NCBI GenBank assembly: GCA_905221615.1
Contig: CAJNDT010006202.1
Coordinates: forward strand, 1,173,848-1,237,847
Direction of reading: 5' to 3'
DNA length: 64,000 nt
Source: Symbiodinium sp. CCMP2592
Taxonomy: Eukaryota; Sar; Dinophyceae; Suessiales; Symbiodiniaceae
Below, piece after piece: positions 6,215 through 64,000 of the stretch. The notes under the pieces are model-generated. The model saw only the letters and a list, made by a program, of their open reading frames with translations. It had not been told where the DNA came from and ran no database searches. The position numbers and the translations under genes were made by a program. Numbering within the stretch: the stretch's first letter is position 1; every line of letters begins with the position of its first letter.

Positions 6215-7701
6215 GCGTGTGTGTACACCGACTGTATGTGTAAACTCTCCGAAGCTTCGGCGGATCTCTGCCTTGCTGCCAGGCGAAGTACTGGCCTGCA
6301 GCCCTCCAGTTGCACTTGGGGCTCACCCGGCCGGGTGTGAGCTCTGATGATCATATGGGCGTATGACGAAGATACTGATGTATGAACAATGATGATGATA
6401 GTTTGGCGTGGGGCTACAGGCGACATTGGGCTGTAGCTTACGACAGAATACAGGCCTGCACCTCGCACTGCTTTTTCTCGCGCTGGCTGCCTTTCACTTT
6501 CAGGGACTCCGAGCTGTCTACTTCTCATCCAGGCCCGCACTTTTGTCGGCAGGTTTGACACTGCCCTTACATCTGTGGAGAGATTCCTATCCGAGCAAGG
6601 TAATTGTTGAAAACGGCTTTGGGATCTGGAGCTTCCATAAAACTGAGGTCGACACATGCACGCCAACTTTGTTCTTCAGAAGTGCGTGGAACTTTTGCCC
6701 GCGGCCTACGTGGACTTCATCGTGGAGGGACTTGAGGACGGGTTTGGGTCTGCGTGGTCCGAGGCTTCTGTCTGATCCCTTGAAGACTTTAAAGGATACA
6801 GTAATACCGCAATACATTTTCTACTGCCTAAGCAGCTATGGTCACGTGGACTAGAGCCGTCTCCTGCGGTAGCCTATTGACAGCCAGGTCTCAACAATGA
6901 CAATGAAACCTCCATGTGACCCCACTCACTTTACGGAGAAGGTTTCAGGATATTCTAGAGGTGCATGGACCCATGATTCCAACAACACCTCCACACCAAA
7001 CTCCTCCGCCTCTTGTGCAATGGTAAAACCCCAAACCATAAACCTCTTTGTGCGATAGTAGAGGAGCACGCAGTTGAAGCTGCCCAGCACCAGCCGAGAC
7101 CTCAATGTCCACGAAGCATGCTCGAAAGACCGGTTGTTCTGCCTGGAACTCTAGTGATACAGAGGATCTTCCTGGTAGACCTGGGTTGGTGTCTCCTGTA
7201 AAATCGCGTAAAATACTGTCGAGGTTTATTCTAGTACTACTGTAGGTTTCTAGTTCTAGTGGAAAGGCACATGAGGGGATTACTGATGATGTGAGGTTTG
7301 ATTCATTTGGGTGGATCTCTGCTGGAAACCCACCGAAGTGCAGCTGACAGCGGCGAGATGCCGCCGACATGCTCCTCATCAAGCTAATGTTCCATACTCA
7401 AGGCGAGAAATACACCTAATCGGCCCTCAAGAGCCCTGCTGTCAAGCCTCAATCGTGTCCTGTTCCATTTGGTAGGTTCTTGTCGCTGCTATGCTTGAAG
7501 CACGATGCGACTCGAATAAGCAATGCCAACCCAATTCTTGACAAGCACCACGTATCGTGATGGTAGGTGCTAACTGCTGCGAGTTTTTAGACTGACGTGG
7601 ATTGAGTGCACAGTATACTCTAAGAGGCAATTTGCCCCCTACATATTCATTGCTTCCGCGGCCTTTGTCCTGTGGCGTGCACCGTGCCGGTGCTTTCTCC
7701 G
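6215..7701. other. Upstream region of the hydrolase gene, no other gene recognised
   Basis: Mixed sequence without repeats or hairpins that I could find. No clear core promoter element (TATA box) was recognised just upstream of 7702. The nearest AG dinucleotides upstream of the start that could serve as splice acceptors are near 7612-7627, about 75-90 bases away. No spliced-leader relic was seen. Confidence 0.4.
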
Positions 7702-8937
7702 ATGGCGGCCTACTTCCGGAAGGCCGCATCACCGGAAGGCGAGGACGAGGACGAGAAGAAGACCTCCTCCTCTGCTTCCCGGAGCTTCACAACCCTCGAG
7801 GTTGATGGGCGGAAGGTCACATTGCGGGTCTTCACGCCCGCCGGAGAAGGTGGCTCGAAGCCTGCCGTCGTGATGGTTTGTGGTCTCCTCTGGTTCGGCG
7901 AGGGCATATTGGGCTTCATTGGCCTCAATTTCAACGACGCATTCGGCTATGCACTGGCACGGCACGGCTTGGCCTGCGTTCAAATCCACACGCCACAGCG
8001 CCACCTCGCGCACACGCGAATGCAGGAACTGGCACTGGCGCTCTGCGCCCCGGTGTGTCTGGTGCCCGGCCTCCGTTTCTTGCTTCTTTTGGCGGATGTG
8101 CTCATGCTCCTGACATCCCAACAAGACGTTTGGCTACTGTTGGTGGTAGTCGCCCTTCCTGGGCTGGTAGATGCGGTTCTTGCTGCCTCTTTGGCTGTGC
8201 CCATGCTTCTGTTGGGCCCTCTTGGTTGGCTTTTCACTGCTCTTTTCATGATCGGCGGCTTGGTGCTTGTGCCGGCTCTCCACTTTGCCTTCCGTATGGG
8301 TCAGTACCTCATGGGTGAGCTGGACCTGACTGGGGAAAGCCGCCGAAACTACCTCAAAGAGGTGGAAGCAGCCGTGTCCTGGTCGGAGGAGAATGCAAGC
8401 GCGCTGAAAAGCGACGGCCGACTGGTCCTTTGTGGTTACTCCTCCGGTGGCCATGTGGCGGCCCTCTATGGCTTGGAAGCCTGTGCCGCTGGAAGGGGTC
8501 GTTTCGAGGCGGTCGTCCTGGTCTCAGGAATCTACGACCTTCGGACGAAGTGGGAGGACGCACGACGTTTCCTGGCCCCCGTCATGAACCTCATCTTCAA
8601 GGACATCCTCGGGGCTGACACGGACGCAAAGCGCGCCGCTGCGTCGCCTGCGGCCGTGGTGCAGTCCTCTCAGCAGAAGGCCCTGGACAGCAACTGTACC
8701 TGGTGGATTCTCAACGCACGCAAGGAGCTTTTGGGTCTCCCCCTATTGGAGGACATCCTCTTTGCAAGTGAGAGCTTTGCCGAGGGGCTTAAAGCAAAAG
8801 GTGCCCCGGTGAGGCGTGCGCAGTGTGGCCACAATCATTGGCTCTTAATCTTTGGCTTCCCGGCCTTTGCGGCTTCTTTCTCCGCGACTCTGAAGGGGAA
8901 GGAGGCCGAAGATCAGTCGGAGAAAGTAGCAGAGTGA
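7702..8937 (+). CDS. Membrane-associated alpha/beta-hydrolase (esterase type), intronless
   Basis: This is the only convincing gene: 411 codons, ATG at 7702, TGA at 8935-8937, no interruption. The in-frame GTG at 7672 is not taken as a start because the organism appears eukaryotic. Residues 1-25 are acidic, Lys- and Ser-rich, probably disordered. Residues 54-65 form a beta strand leading into C60-G-L-L-W, where related enzymes normally have an HGG oxyanion motif. Residues about 112-137, 143-170 and 172-196 are strongly hydrophobic and probably membrane segments. The nucleophile elbow is G245-Y-S247-S-G249-G-H, followed by VSGIYDL at 274-280. The likely catalytic His is H377 in CGHNHW; the acid may be E342 (ILNARKELLGL), which is uncertain. 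The GxSxGGH elbow and SG-YDL strand resemble the kynurenine-formamidase / isoprenylcysteine-methylesterase / alpha/beta-hydrolase-3 group, so an ester- or amide-hydrolase at a membrane is inferred. The substrate is unknown. The codons are GC-rich compared with the flanks. Confidence 0.88.
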   Translation: MAAYFRKAASPEGEDEDEKKTSSSASRSFTTLEVDGRKVTLRVFTPAGEGGSKPAVVMVCGLLWFGEGILGFIGLNFNDAFGYALARHGLACVQIHTPQRHLAHTRMQELALALCAPVCLVPGLRFLLLLADVLMLLTSQQDVWLLLVVVALPGLVDAVLAASLAVPMLLLGPLGWLFTALFMIGGLVLVPALHFAFRMGQYLMGELDLTGESRRNYLKEVEAAVSWSEENASALKSDGRLVLCGYSSGGHVAALYGLEACAAGRGRFEAVVLVSGIYDLRTKWEDARRFLAPVMNLIFKDILGADTDAKRAAASPAAVVQSSQQKALDSNCTWWILNARKELLGLPLLEDILFASESFAEGLKAKGAPVRRAQCGHNHWLLIFGFPAFAASFSATLKGKEAEDQSEKVAE

Positions 8938-11208: not shown

Positions 11209-11254
11209 AGCCTGAAGCCTGGTATTTTCTAAGCCTGAAGACTGGTATTTTCTA
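11209..11254. repeat. 23-bp tandem duplication
   Basis: AGCCTGAAGCCTGGTATTTT (11209-11228, unit to 11231) is followed immediately by the same 23-mer with one mismatch (11232-11254). Confidence 0.85.
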
Positions 11255-18674: not shown

Positions 18675-18780
18675 GGGAGTTTCCGAAAACTAGGGGTACC
18701 TTATTGGGGGGGTCCTTTTACTAAGGATCCTATACTATTTAGGGAACTATAACCCCCTTCGTTGTGATAAAACTCGCACC
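18675..18780. repeat. Family A element with a decayed right end
   Basis: The left end GGGAGTTTCCGAAAACTAGG and the inner GGGTACCTTATT, GGGGTCC and AAGGATCCTA words match family A. The right end is degenerate (AAAACTCGCACC). The centre holds a G7 run. Confidence 0.75.
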
Positions 18781-36735: not shown

Positions 36736-36830
36736 CATTGGATGCGTGGTTTGTGCGGCCAGCCTCAGGTGTCGTGCAAGTGACGAGGCAGCGATCGGTT
36801 GCAGCTCCTGTCGGGATGTTGCCGAGAATG

Positions 36831-36893
36831 GGGGTCTCCGAAAATAGGGGTACCATATTTTGGGGTCCTTATAATAAGGATCCTACTATTTAA
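36831..36893. repeat. Family A left half only
   Basis: GGGGTCTCCGAAAATAGGGG then TACC...GGGGTCC and AAGGATCCTACTATTTAAG match the left and centre of family A. The right arm is absent. Confidence 0.75.
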
Positions 36894-42570: not shown

Positions 42571-42671
42571 GGGAGTTTCCGATAATTAGGAGTACCTCAT
42601 TTTGGGGTCTTATAGTAAGGATCCTATTATTTAGGGTACTTTATTAGGGTCCCCTATTTTCGGAAACTCCC
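42571..42671. repeat. Family A foldback element (complete)
   Basis: GGGAGTTTCCGATAATTAGG pairs with CCTATTTTCGGAAACTCCC. ACAT lies on both flanks (42567-42570 and 42672-42675), a possible 4-bp target duplication. Confidence 0.88.
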
Positions 42672-50315: not shown

Positions 50316-50425
50316 TGGGTACGGCCCCCACTCAGGAACAGTTGGATAATACTCATAATATAGATATATGAGGCCCTTAATAGTAGCTCCATTATAGACT
50401 GTTACTGTATGTGGGCCGTACCCAA
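50316..50425. repeat. Foldback element K with 9-bp target duplication
   Basis: TGGGTACGGCCCCCAC at left pairs with GTGGGCCGTACCCA at right. TGTATGCAG flanks both ends exactly (50307-50315 and 50426-50434). Confidence 0.85.
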
Positions 50426-54077: not shown

Positions 54078-54306
54078 ATTTTTTTAAGAAACATTTGCAA
54101 GAAAGGCGGCATAACTGGAAGACGACTACAGAACTGGCCAGCAGCATGGTCGAGATGGTGATGACAGCTGAGCAAGCAAACTGAATCGAATTTTGCTTCA
54201 GAGTTGCTGGTGAAGCAGGGCTTCTGTCGGTTTGGCAGCATCTGCCAACAGAAACGTCAGGCTCGTCTGCAAGCGGCAGCTCCCGAGAGCTATGAAGACT
54301 GAGGCC

Positions 54307-54341
54307 TTCTGCTGTCAAAGCGAACATTCTCTCATTCATGT
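54307..54341. repeat. 35-bp direct repeat, left copy
   Basis: The sequence starts TTCTGCTGTCAAAGCGAACA and ends in ATTCATGT, directly abutting the family A element. It is identical to 54444-54478. Confidence 0.95.
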
Positions 54342-54443
54342 GGGAGTTTCCGAAAATTAGGGGTACCTTATTCTGGTGTCCTTGTAATAAGGATCCTACT
54401 ATTTGGGGTACTGTATTAGGGTCCCCTATTTTCGGAAACTCCC
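54342..54443. repeat. Family A foldback element (complete, flanked by 35-bp direct repeats)
   Basis: GGGAGTTTCCGAAAATTAGG then GGTACC pairs with GGTCCCCTATTTTCGGAAAC then TCCC. 102 bp. Its two boundaries coincide exactly with the 35-bp direct repeats, so the duplication came with the insertion or its repair. Confidence 0.93.
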
Positions 54444-54478
54444 TTCTGCTGTCAAAGCGAACATTCTCTCATTCATGT
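54444..54478. repeat. 35-bp direct repeat, right copy
   Basis: An exact copy of 54307-54341, beginning at the base after the element's terminal CCC. Confidence 0.95.
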
Positions 54479-54845
54479 CCATGATGCTTTAGGGTTTTGT
54501 GTCGGTATGTTGCTTTTGTGTCGGGACTACTCGGCCTCGTTATCGTCTGCCGGGACTCAGAGCATCAAAGTACATCCAATATAGAGGAAGATCATGGGGA
54601 AGAGTAGGACGATGAGGCTGAGTGCGACTTAGACAATGGTGAGTATGGTGGATGATGACGGTTACGATGCTCAAGAGGAGGAAGGTTATTCGAGGGGAGC
54701 AGCATGAAGATGATTCATGGAGGTGCAGCGAAGCCGCAGACAGTGGTGTTCACGATGAGGATGACCTCGATGGTGTTGTTACTGGTGTCGTTGGCTGTGG
54801 GGATGATGAAAATGGCGAGCTGGCTGTGACCATCAGCAACTACTA

Positions 54846-54940
54846 TAGGGGCCTAAATGGTTACCTATACTATTTTGGCGGTTGCTTTTTGTTATGTTAT
54901 AATGGGCCCCAGAACCCTATTCTAATTGTTAAGGCCCCTA
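54846..54940. repeat. Family D foldback element
   Basis: TAGGGGCCTAAATGGTTACC pairs with TTCTAATTGTTAAGGCCCCT then A. Inner CTATTTTGGCGGTTGC and AATGGGCCCCAGAACCC. Confidence 0.88.
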
Positions 54941-56007
54941 TATTACCTGTCTGTCTGTGGTATGACTGATAGGTCTGACAGATGTTTGCTACACAGACAT
55001 GCCTAGGGCCTAGGGACGATACTGGCATTTACAGACGAACCGGCCGACAAGCTGAGTAACAACCGTGTATGCTGCCGCTTCCGCACATCTCTTCTCAACC
55101 TTCTGGAAGATCCCGTATAGACACCCATAGTGCCCTTAAAGGGAACCCTAGTATTGAACCCCATAGTACCCTTCCGGAAAACCCCCCTCCCCAGTTGCAG
55201 CCTGCTTGTTCCGCTGCGCAGGCTGAATTTGACGGCCTGGGTCGAACACCCCTGCGTTGCACAGATGTCGATGCCTTTTAGAGGGGCAGTAGTTTGGGTC
55301 GTATAAGGATTCTTTCAGTTTTGACTCTGTTTAGAGGATCCCAGCCTCCTGTTATGAAATAAGTGCCTGGTCGAACCCTGAACCCTCATGTGTCTATGGC
55401 CCTTTAATCTCGAAGACTATGAAATTCGGATGCAAGCATCCAAAGCCTCAGTTTCAAGATCGATCCGGTTTGTTGCTGCAGCCGATGGTCTGACGTTGGA
55501 GCCTAGCAAGTCATCGCCCTCTTTTGGCTTTCCGCGGCGCGCGCATCCATCGTAGGCTCAGAAGGGGCCAAGGCGCAAAGCGCCCCACATCAATTCAGCT
55601 GGTGGACAGGACTTGCATCATGAATTTTTGCAGTTCCTGTGGATGGAGTTAGTGTTACAGTGTTTGCTCTGCAGGAGGCAATTGCCACACAGTGTGCTGT
55701 GCTCCGCCAGCTTGCATATCAAATGCTGCAAGAGGTTACTGCACGCTGCCCATTTGGCAAAGAGGCAGCGGCTGCTTTGTTTTGGTGACACGCAATCGAA
55801 TCCTGGAGGCATGCAACCCCCCCAGATCTCTCAATCTGCTGGCAAATTATGAGCTACTATGTGCGAGATGGTTTTCGAGATTTGGTGTTGCGGAGGACCA
55901 AGAGTATACGCCTGAGATTTTAGCACGAATGGCCGTTGATATATTGTTTTGTCTGTCAACCCCCCCAATTCAGACTCGGACTGAACCCTGAGCTACAAGC
56001 CTGATGT
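54941..56007. other. Anonymous sequence with repeat H debris
   Basis: CCCGTATAGACACCCATAGT, GCCCTTAAAGGGAACCCTAG and CCCCATAGTACCC at 55110-55175 resemble repeat H. No gene was recognised. Confidence 0.4.
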
Positions 56008-56057
56008 AGTAAGTATCATAGAGCGCCTTACTAGTAAGTATCATAGAGCGCCTTACT
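56008..56057. repeat. Perfect 25-bp tandem duplication
   Basis: The 25-mer starting AGTAAGTATCATAGAGCGCC is present twice without a mismatch (56008-56032, 56033-56057). Confidence 0.95.
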
Positions 56058-62090: not shown

Positions 62091-62347
62091 GTCCCTCTGT
62101 ATCTCTCAGTCATTCACTCACGGACTCAGCCACGAAGCTCCGACGAAATTAAATTCTGACATTAAGCGTTGCTATTTTCGAAGCTGGCAATCCCTACGAA
62201 ACGAAACAGCGACTTCGCAATCGGCCCGGCCTGAATTGTTACCAATACCAATCCTCCCTAAGCCCTAAACCCCTGCACGAGCTTCTTGAGGCCTTCGCTG
62301 CCACAAAAGCAAAGCGTGAGGTGCGAAGTTATTCAGTGCTATCGGGC

Positions 62348-62388
62348 GTTGAGACTTTGAGATTAGCGGGTGTTGAGACTTTGAGATT
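62348..62388. repeat. 24-bp-period duplication
   Basis: GTTGAGACTTTGAGATT occurs at 62348-62364 and 62372-62388, separated by AGCGGGT. Confidence 0.85.
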
Positions 62389-63581: not shown

Positions 63582-64000
63582 GTTTGATTAGGGAACCACC
63601 TGTTTCTGGCAGCAGAAGATATCACCGAAATCCCAGGGATCCCAAGGCCAGGGATCTCTGACCCTTCCATCTCAAAGCTACGGGCTTTCTAGGTCAAAGC
63701 CAAGGGCTTGCAAATCTCTGGTCCCGGGCCGGACCCTGTTAATCGGGGGCGGTTTCCTGCTATTCTGGGGGGGGCGGGGCCTGCAAAGGGGTAGCCTTGG
63801 AAAACTTGACAAACCTACTCTGTTTATATACGTTTAATTAGGGAACCACCTGTTTCTAGCAGCAGAAGATATCACCGAAATCCCAGGGATCCCAAGGCCA
63901 GGGATCTTTGACCCTTCCATCTCAAAGCTACGGGCTTTCTAGGTCAAAGCCAAGGGCTTGCAAATCCTTGGTCCCGGCCCGGACCCTGTTAATCGGGGGC
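63582..64000. repeat. 250-bp tandem repeat, truncated by window end
   Basis: GGGAACCACCTGTTTCTGGC at 63591 recurs at 63841 (offset 250 bp). About 160 bp of the second copy is visible and differs at about five positions. The array may continue beyond 64000. Confidence 0.93.

Follow-up and report, generated by a model that had tools for sequence, protein, structure and literature searches.

A MITE-like element family with a 4-bp target-site duplication in Symbiodinium sp. CCMP2592 and one copy bordered by 35-bp direct repeats

In the window, by which we mean the whole 64,000-bp stretch of DNA analysed here (C5340:1173848-1237847), a short inverted-repeat element of a family designated family A is bordered on both sides by a direct repeat of 35 bp. 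The question that this locus raises is whether so long a repeat reflects the way in which the family inserts or an event at this one copy. The window has a GC content of 49% and contains many TTTAGGG-like stretches together with simple repeats. A word derived from a spliced leader had no match when up to one mismatch was allowed. No match to Rfam was obtained in it at gathering thresholds, ARAGORN found no tRNA or tmRNA, and in a Pfam scan of eight of its open reading frames only that at 7624-8937 matched, a 437-residue stop-to-stop open frame assigned to alpha/beta hydrolase families (BD-FAE, Abhydrolase_3). An 18.3-kb near-perfect palindrome lies outside the window, about 1.4 kb upstream, at C5340:1154128-1172417. 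When aligned with its reverse complement it scores 98.9% identity across 18,328 columns, and it is either genuine, as a large inverted duplication, or an artefact of a read or of the assembly. Another MITE-like element was found at 50316-50424, with a 9-bp flanking repeat (TGTATGCAG) that is offset by one base. Local duplications include a perfect 25-bp tandem at 56007-56057, which contains no element, imperfect 23-24-bp tandems at 11209-11254 and 62343-62388, and a 250-bp-spaced direct duplication at 63587-64000, which runs to the window end with identical stretches of 58, 49, 22, and 21 bp.

The element and its flanking repeats

The original prediction stated that identical 35-mers border the element at 54342-54443 to the base, and this was confirmed, since the sequence at 54307-54341, which reaches up to the left end of the element, recurs unchanged at 54444-54478, directly after the right end (Table 1). 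The direct repeat even reaches 37 bp when the CC at 54305-54306, with which the element also ends (54442-54443), is counted, and because of this identity over 2 bp leftwards one breakpoint is ambiguous by 2 bp. Repeat, element, and repeat together span 172 bp (54307-54478). When the window was randomised 20 times under a first-order Markov (dinucleotide) model, exact direct repeats with copies at most 3 kb apart reached a maximum of 12-15 bp. The inverted ends of the 102-bp element are perfect over 16 of 16 positions (GGGAGTTTCCGAAAAT / ATTTTCGGAAACTCCC), and as single-stranded DNA the element folds into a hairpin of -23.6 kcal/mol (z = -6.3 against 200 shuffles); the fold of the 35-mer is unremarkable (z -0.6).

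Table 1. Features of the family A element and its flanks (window positions)
Feature	Position	Strand	Basis
Family A element, 102 bp, MITE-like, 16-bp perfect TIRs	54342..54443	+	Repeat, fold, family members
Left ATGT, fits the family A 4-bp target duplication (A..T, consensus ATAT)	54338..54341	+	Flank table
Right ATGT, expected second 4-bp copy, displaced 31 bp from the element end	54475..54478	+	Flank table
Left-flank segment of 31 bp, presumably the template for the extra copy	54307..54337	+	Repeat, paralogue alignment
Extra 31-bp copy, between the element and the right ATGT	54444..54474	+	Repeat, paralogue alignment, flank table
CC, with which the element also ends (54442-54443); microhomology of 2 bp at the second breakpoint	54305..54306	+	Repeat comparison

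The two junctions are different. The left flank ends with ATGT directly before the GGGAG of the element, and the right flank starts with TTCT and reaches ATGT 31 bases on, which gives the order (31-mer)(ATGT)(element)(31-mer)(ATGT). The structure thus reads as a normal 4-bp duplication to which 31 further bases of left-flank sequence have been added at the right. It is this copy of the 31-mer, standing ahead of the right ATGT, that makes the repeats agree to the last base at either end of the element.

Target-site duplications across the family

Copies of family A were collected from the assembly of 1.098 Gb (5,383 contigs). The element as query gave 47 matches, with the best 40 of 2,262 first-look candidates scored, and the copy at 42571 as query gave 40 matches, with the best 40 of 3,695 first-look candidates scored. 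Flanks were tabulated for 93 distinct full-length copies, 92 of them readable on both sides (the right flank of L084 is N). The count leaves out 21 partial copies, the loci that duplicate the window (L001, L042, L045, L052), and copies whose 20-bp flanks are identical; in the flank table, L041 stands for the copy at window position 1. The sample consists of the best-scoring copies for the two queries and of those in the window, its flanks, and 60 kb of further stretches, with a bias towards young copies.

An exact 4-bp duplication was present in 66 of the 92 readable copies and a 4-bp duplication with one mismatch in 13, so that 79 of 92 fit a 4-bp rule. Ten showed no clear duplication (11 if L084 is counted), and three had a duplication longer than 4 bp, namely 6 bp (L034), 10 bp (L029), and 35 bp (54342-54443). 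The most frequent of the 66 exact targets were ATAT (24), ATTT (11), ATGT (8), and AAAT (7), so that ATGT ranks third. The first base was A in 27 and the last base T in 28 of the 29 exact duplications of a first sample, and the first base of the right flank was A in 84, T in five, G in three, and N in one of the 93 tabulated copies. Some family copies in the window have no right half (18675-18755, 36830-36892). The 18675 copy has CCTTCGT on both sides; at randomly chosen positions of the window, a 7-mer is repeated at so short a distance in about 3% of cases.

The original prediction had taken the long repeat as a sign of a widely staggered cut, and had proposed that flank duplication lengths be tabulated across copies. 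The tabulation goes against this mode of insertion, as similar copies mostly carry 4 bp, and long-stagger insertion is ruled out for family A as a whole. A retrotransposed (TPRT-like) origin with variable duplications was also considered, given the truncated copies and the possible 7-bp repeat at 18675, and was dropped because copies genome-wide show mostly a fixed 4-bp, ATAT-like duplication.

By these sequence features, family A is a new family of a known kind, MITE-like, with a curious junction at one copy. Like MITEs, its members are about 100 bp long (well below about 600 bp), with perfect inverted ends and no room for a transposase gene, they show a short duplication of fixed length, and they occur in very many copies of similar length; the one copy with a 35-bp repeat is unlike MITEs. 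The element patterns had no match in the viral contig or genome contig collections, and blastn of the element against plasmids gave no match. Among the literature titles and abstract openings listed, none named family A or a eukaryotic MITE with 35-bp duplications, which is no proof of absence from print.

It is extremely unlikely that the long repeat is an assembly artefact, that is, an overlap laid down twice beside the element. The structure is taken from the 5,383-contig assembly, and the palindrome just upstream of the window may itself be an artefact. However, the site contains neither an N run nor low-complexity sequence, and its breakpoints match, to the base, the element end and a canonical 4-bp target, which are invisible to an assembler. 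The 79 copies that look normal in the same assembly also speak against it.

The three longer duplications raise the possibility of transposition with a variable stagger, in which the first end would be joined at a normal target and the second one elsewhere, at a distance of a few up to tens of bases, so that gap filling would leave 6, 10, or 35 bp as a true but rare target-site duplication. In all three copies the duplication abuts both element ends. When left and right flanks of 42 copies were paired wrongly, at most 6 bp matched, and this length was reached in two of 1,722 ordered pairs; the 10-bp duplication in L029 (1501-1602, ATAATGATAT in place of 4 bp) and the 35-bp case are therefore not chance, but the 6-bp duplication in L034 (around 651, AGATAT in place of 4 bp) might be. 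There are bacterial precedents in IS1549 and IS1634, for which long variable direct repeats of 8-514 bp are described, with no proposed model as of 2008 (PMC2266710). The direct repeat at 54342-54443 resembles them in being far longer than a usual target duplication. In IS1549 and IS1634, however, the long variable repeats are reported as the product of insertion, whereas in family A only three of 92 copies exceed 4 bp and the great majority obey the 4-bp rule. The right junction TTCT is also unlike a target. We consider such a variable stagger unlikely as the source of the 35-bp repeat. Also unlikely is the idea that the transposase usually makes a 4-bp stagger and at a low rate (at most 3/92 sampled copies) joins a second end displaced by 6-35 bp, which would make family A a eukaryotic counterpart of IS1549/IS1634.

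Paralogous loci and age of the insertion

The left flank (54142-54341) was searched against the whole genome, by a search that skips very common words. Apart from its own locus and the second 37-mer copy, the only matches were C90:308040 (96%) and C90:283474 (94%), over the first 190 bases of the flank. Homology between these two loci and the window extends for some 2.1-2.7 kb, with 73-97% identity by piece (mostly 79-91%) and 87-90% in the pieces that adjoin the insertion site. Neither contains the element, and both have one diverged unit, GAGGCCTTCTGCTGTCAA[G/T]GCGAACCTTTTCC, which runs straight into the downstream sequence. The short stretch containing the ATGT target is missing from both, which makes them paralogues rather than perfect empty alleles. 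The site with a single unit and no element for which the original prediction had called was thus found in paralogous form, at two loci, and this left-flank query of the whole genome gave no allelic empty site. About 0.4 kb downstream of the element, at 54845-54942, there is a roughly 100-bp inverted-repeat insertion (ATAGGGGCC...GGCCCCTAT) with CTAC/TTAC-like flanks. It is also absent from both paralogues, which means that one duplicated segment received two MITE-like insertions after the paralogues had diverged.

These loci bear on the idea that the 35-mer was already doubled in this lineage, that the element inserted at the junction, and that its own right 4-bp duplication was later lost. 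Local direct repeats of short length are frequent in this genome: dozens of exact ones of at least 15 bp within 250 bp occur in 233,357 bases examined, and the 25-bp tandem at 56007-56057 is an example of them. The same 12-mer occurs in both flanks of L016 outside its ATTT duplication. Against this sequence of events, the ATGT expected directly after the element is absent, so that a second, exact loss of 4 bp would be needed, and the unit is single at both paralogous loci. The comparison would still be compatible with a tandem duplication confined to the window lineage before insertion, but we regard a pre-existing tandem as very unlikely. As for L016 itself (around 1552), its ATTT duplication is exact, the shared 12-bp word is GGCTCCTTAAAG, and the insertion perhaps occurred inside an older near-tandem repeat.

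The age of the insertion was judged from an alignment of 47 rows that includes the 54342-54443 copy and has the copy at window position 1 twice (from the window and as L041). Set against the majority of the 46 remaining rows, the element shows four differences; all of these recur in other copies, and none is private. Judged by this alignment the insertion is a young one, with which the lack of any difference between the two 35-mers agrees; the event is thus recent, as the original prediction held. Such an age would be compatible with an arrival of the extra 31 bp either during insertion or shortly after it.

Origin of the long repeat

We hypothesize that the element made a standard insertion at ATGT and that templated repair synthesis lengthened its right end, either in the course of the insertion or shortly afterwards, and we regard this as likely. 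A non-autonomous inverted-repeat transposon of the MITE type, with ATAT-like targets and a 4-bp duplication, would have entered at ATGT and left a canonical left junction. A broken or stalled right end would then have copied 31-33 bases leftwards from ATGT, with the left flank, or a sister or homologue that lacked the element, as the template, and would next have been joined to the CCC end of the element via the 2-bp CC match. The extension may have occurred while the insertion gap was under repair. It may also have followed later from a one-ended cleavage or break, or from a replication stall at the hairpin-forming element, with a template switch between the ATGT copies. In a two-step route, tandem duplication of the 137-bp unit and then loss of one element between the ATGT copies would yield the same product.

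The left flank is an ordinary family A target, the right junction is aberrant, both copies of the 35-mer end with ATGT, and a CC is common to the second breakpoint and the element end, all of which support repair synthesis, as do the single unit at two element-free paralogues and the young age of the copy. The direction, template, and timing of the synthesis are what we infer from this arrangement. The CC overlap is weak evidence, since a match of this kind would arise by chance about once in 16 cases, and L029 (10 bp) and L034 (6 bp) show no such overlap at the second breakpoint. Furthermore, the 6- and 10-bp cases also fit an occasional joining of a displaced second end in a single step, 10 of the 92 copies are without a clear duplication, and the paralogues are not perfect empty sites; these points count against the repair reading.

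Fill-in at staggered breaks is a documented source of small tandem duplications (PMC8355091, PMC5730883). There, as at our locus, a few tens of bases are doubled around a break, with or without microhomology. Our locus is unlike these duplications in that a whole transposon lies between the copies and one boundary falls on the transposon's own 4-bp duplication. A comparison can also be made with the introner elements of Amoebophrya, which are described as hairpin-forming inverted repeats flanked by direct repeats; unlike the 35-bp repeat here, those direct repeats are 3-5 nt long and overlap the intron boundaries (PMC7789003). No 137-bp frame of the repeat-plus-element unit starts with GT and ends with AG on either strand, and a canonical GT-AG introner is thus excluded. 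Small tandem duplications were reportedly also traced to staggered-break fill-in and end joining by Vaughn and Bennetzen in 2014.

Repair synthesis at the right end is the most economical account, and its main rival is the joining of a displaced second end by the transposase. The original prediction had also offered insertion by repair or replication slip. This holds as an accident at the 54342-54443 copy and does not hold as the insertion mode of family A, which follows the 4-bp rule. That we are dealing with a repair accident at one copy, and not with a new way of jumping, is well supported. The locus is a worked case of a transposon insertion that mimics a giant target-site duplication. Taken alone, the single copy hinted at a new insertion chemistry, and the copies sampled genome-wide show the plain 4-bp rule. 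If the 6-, 10-, and 35-bp duplications do arise during transposition, errors of second-end joining would be countable among thousands of candidate copies in one genome.
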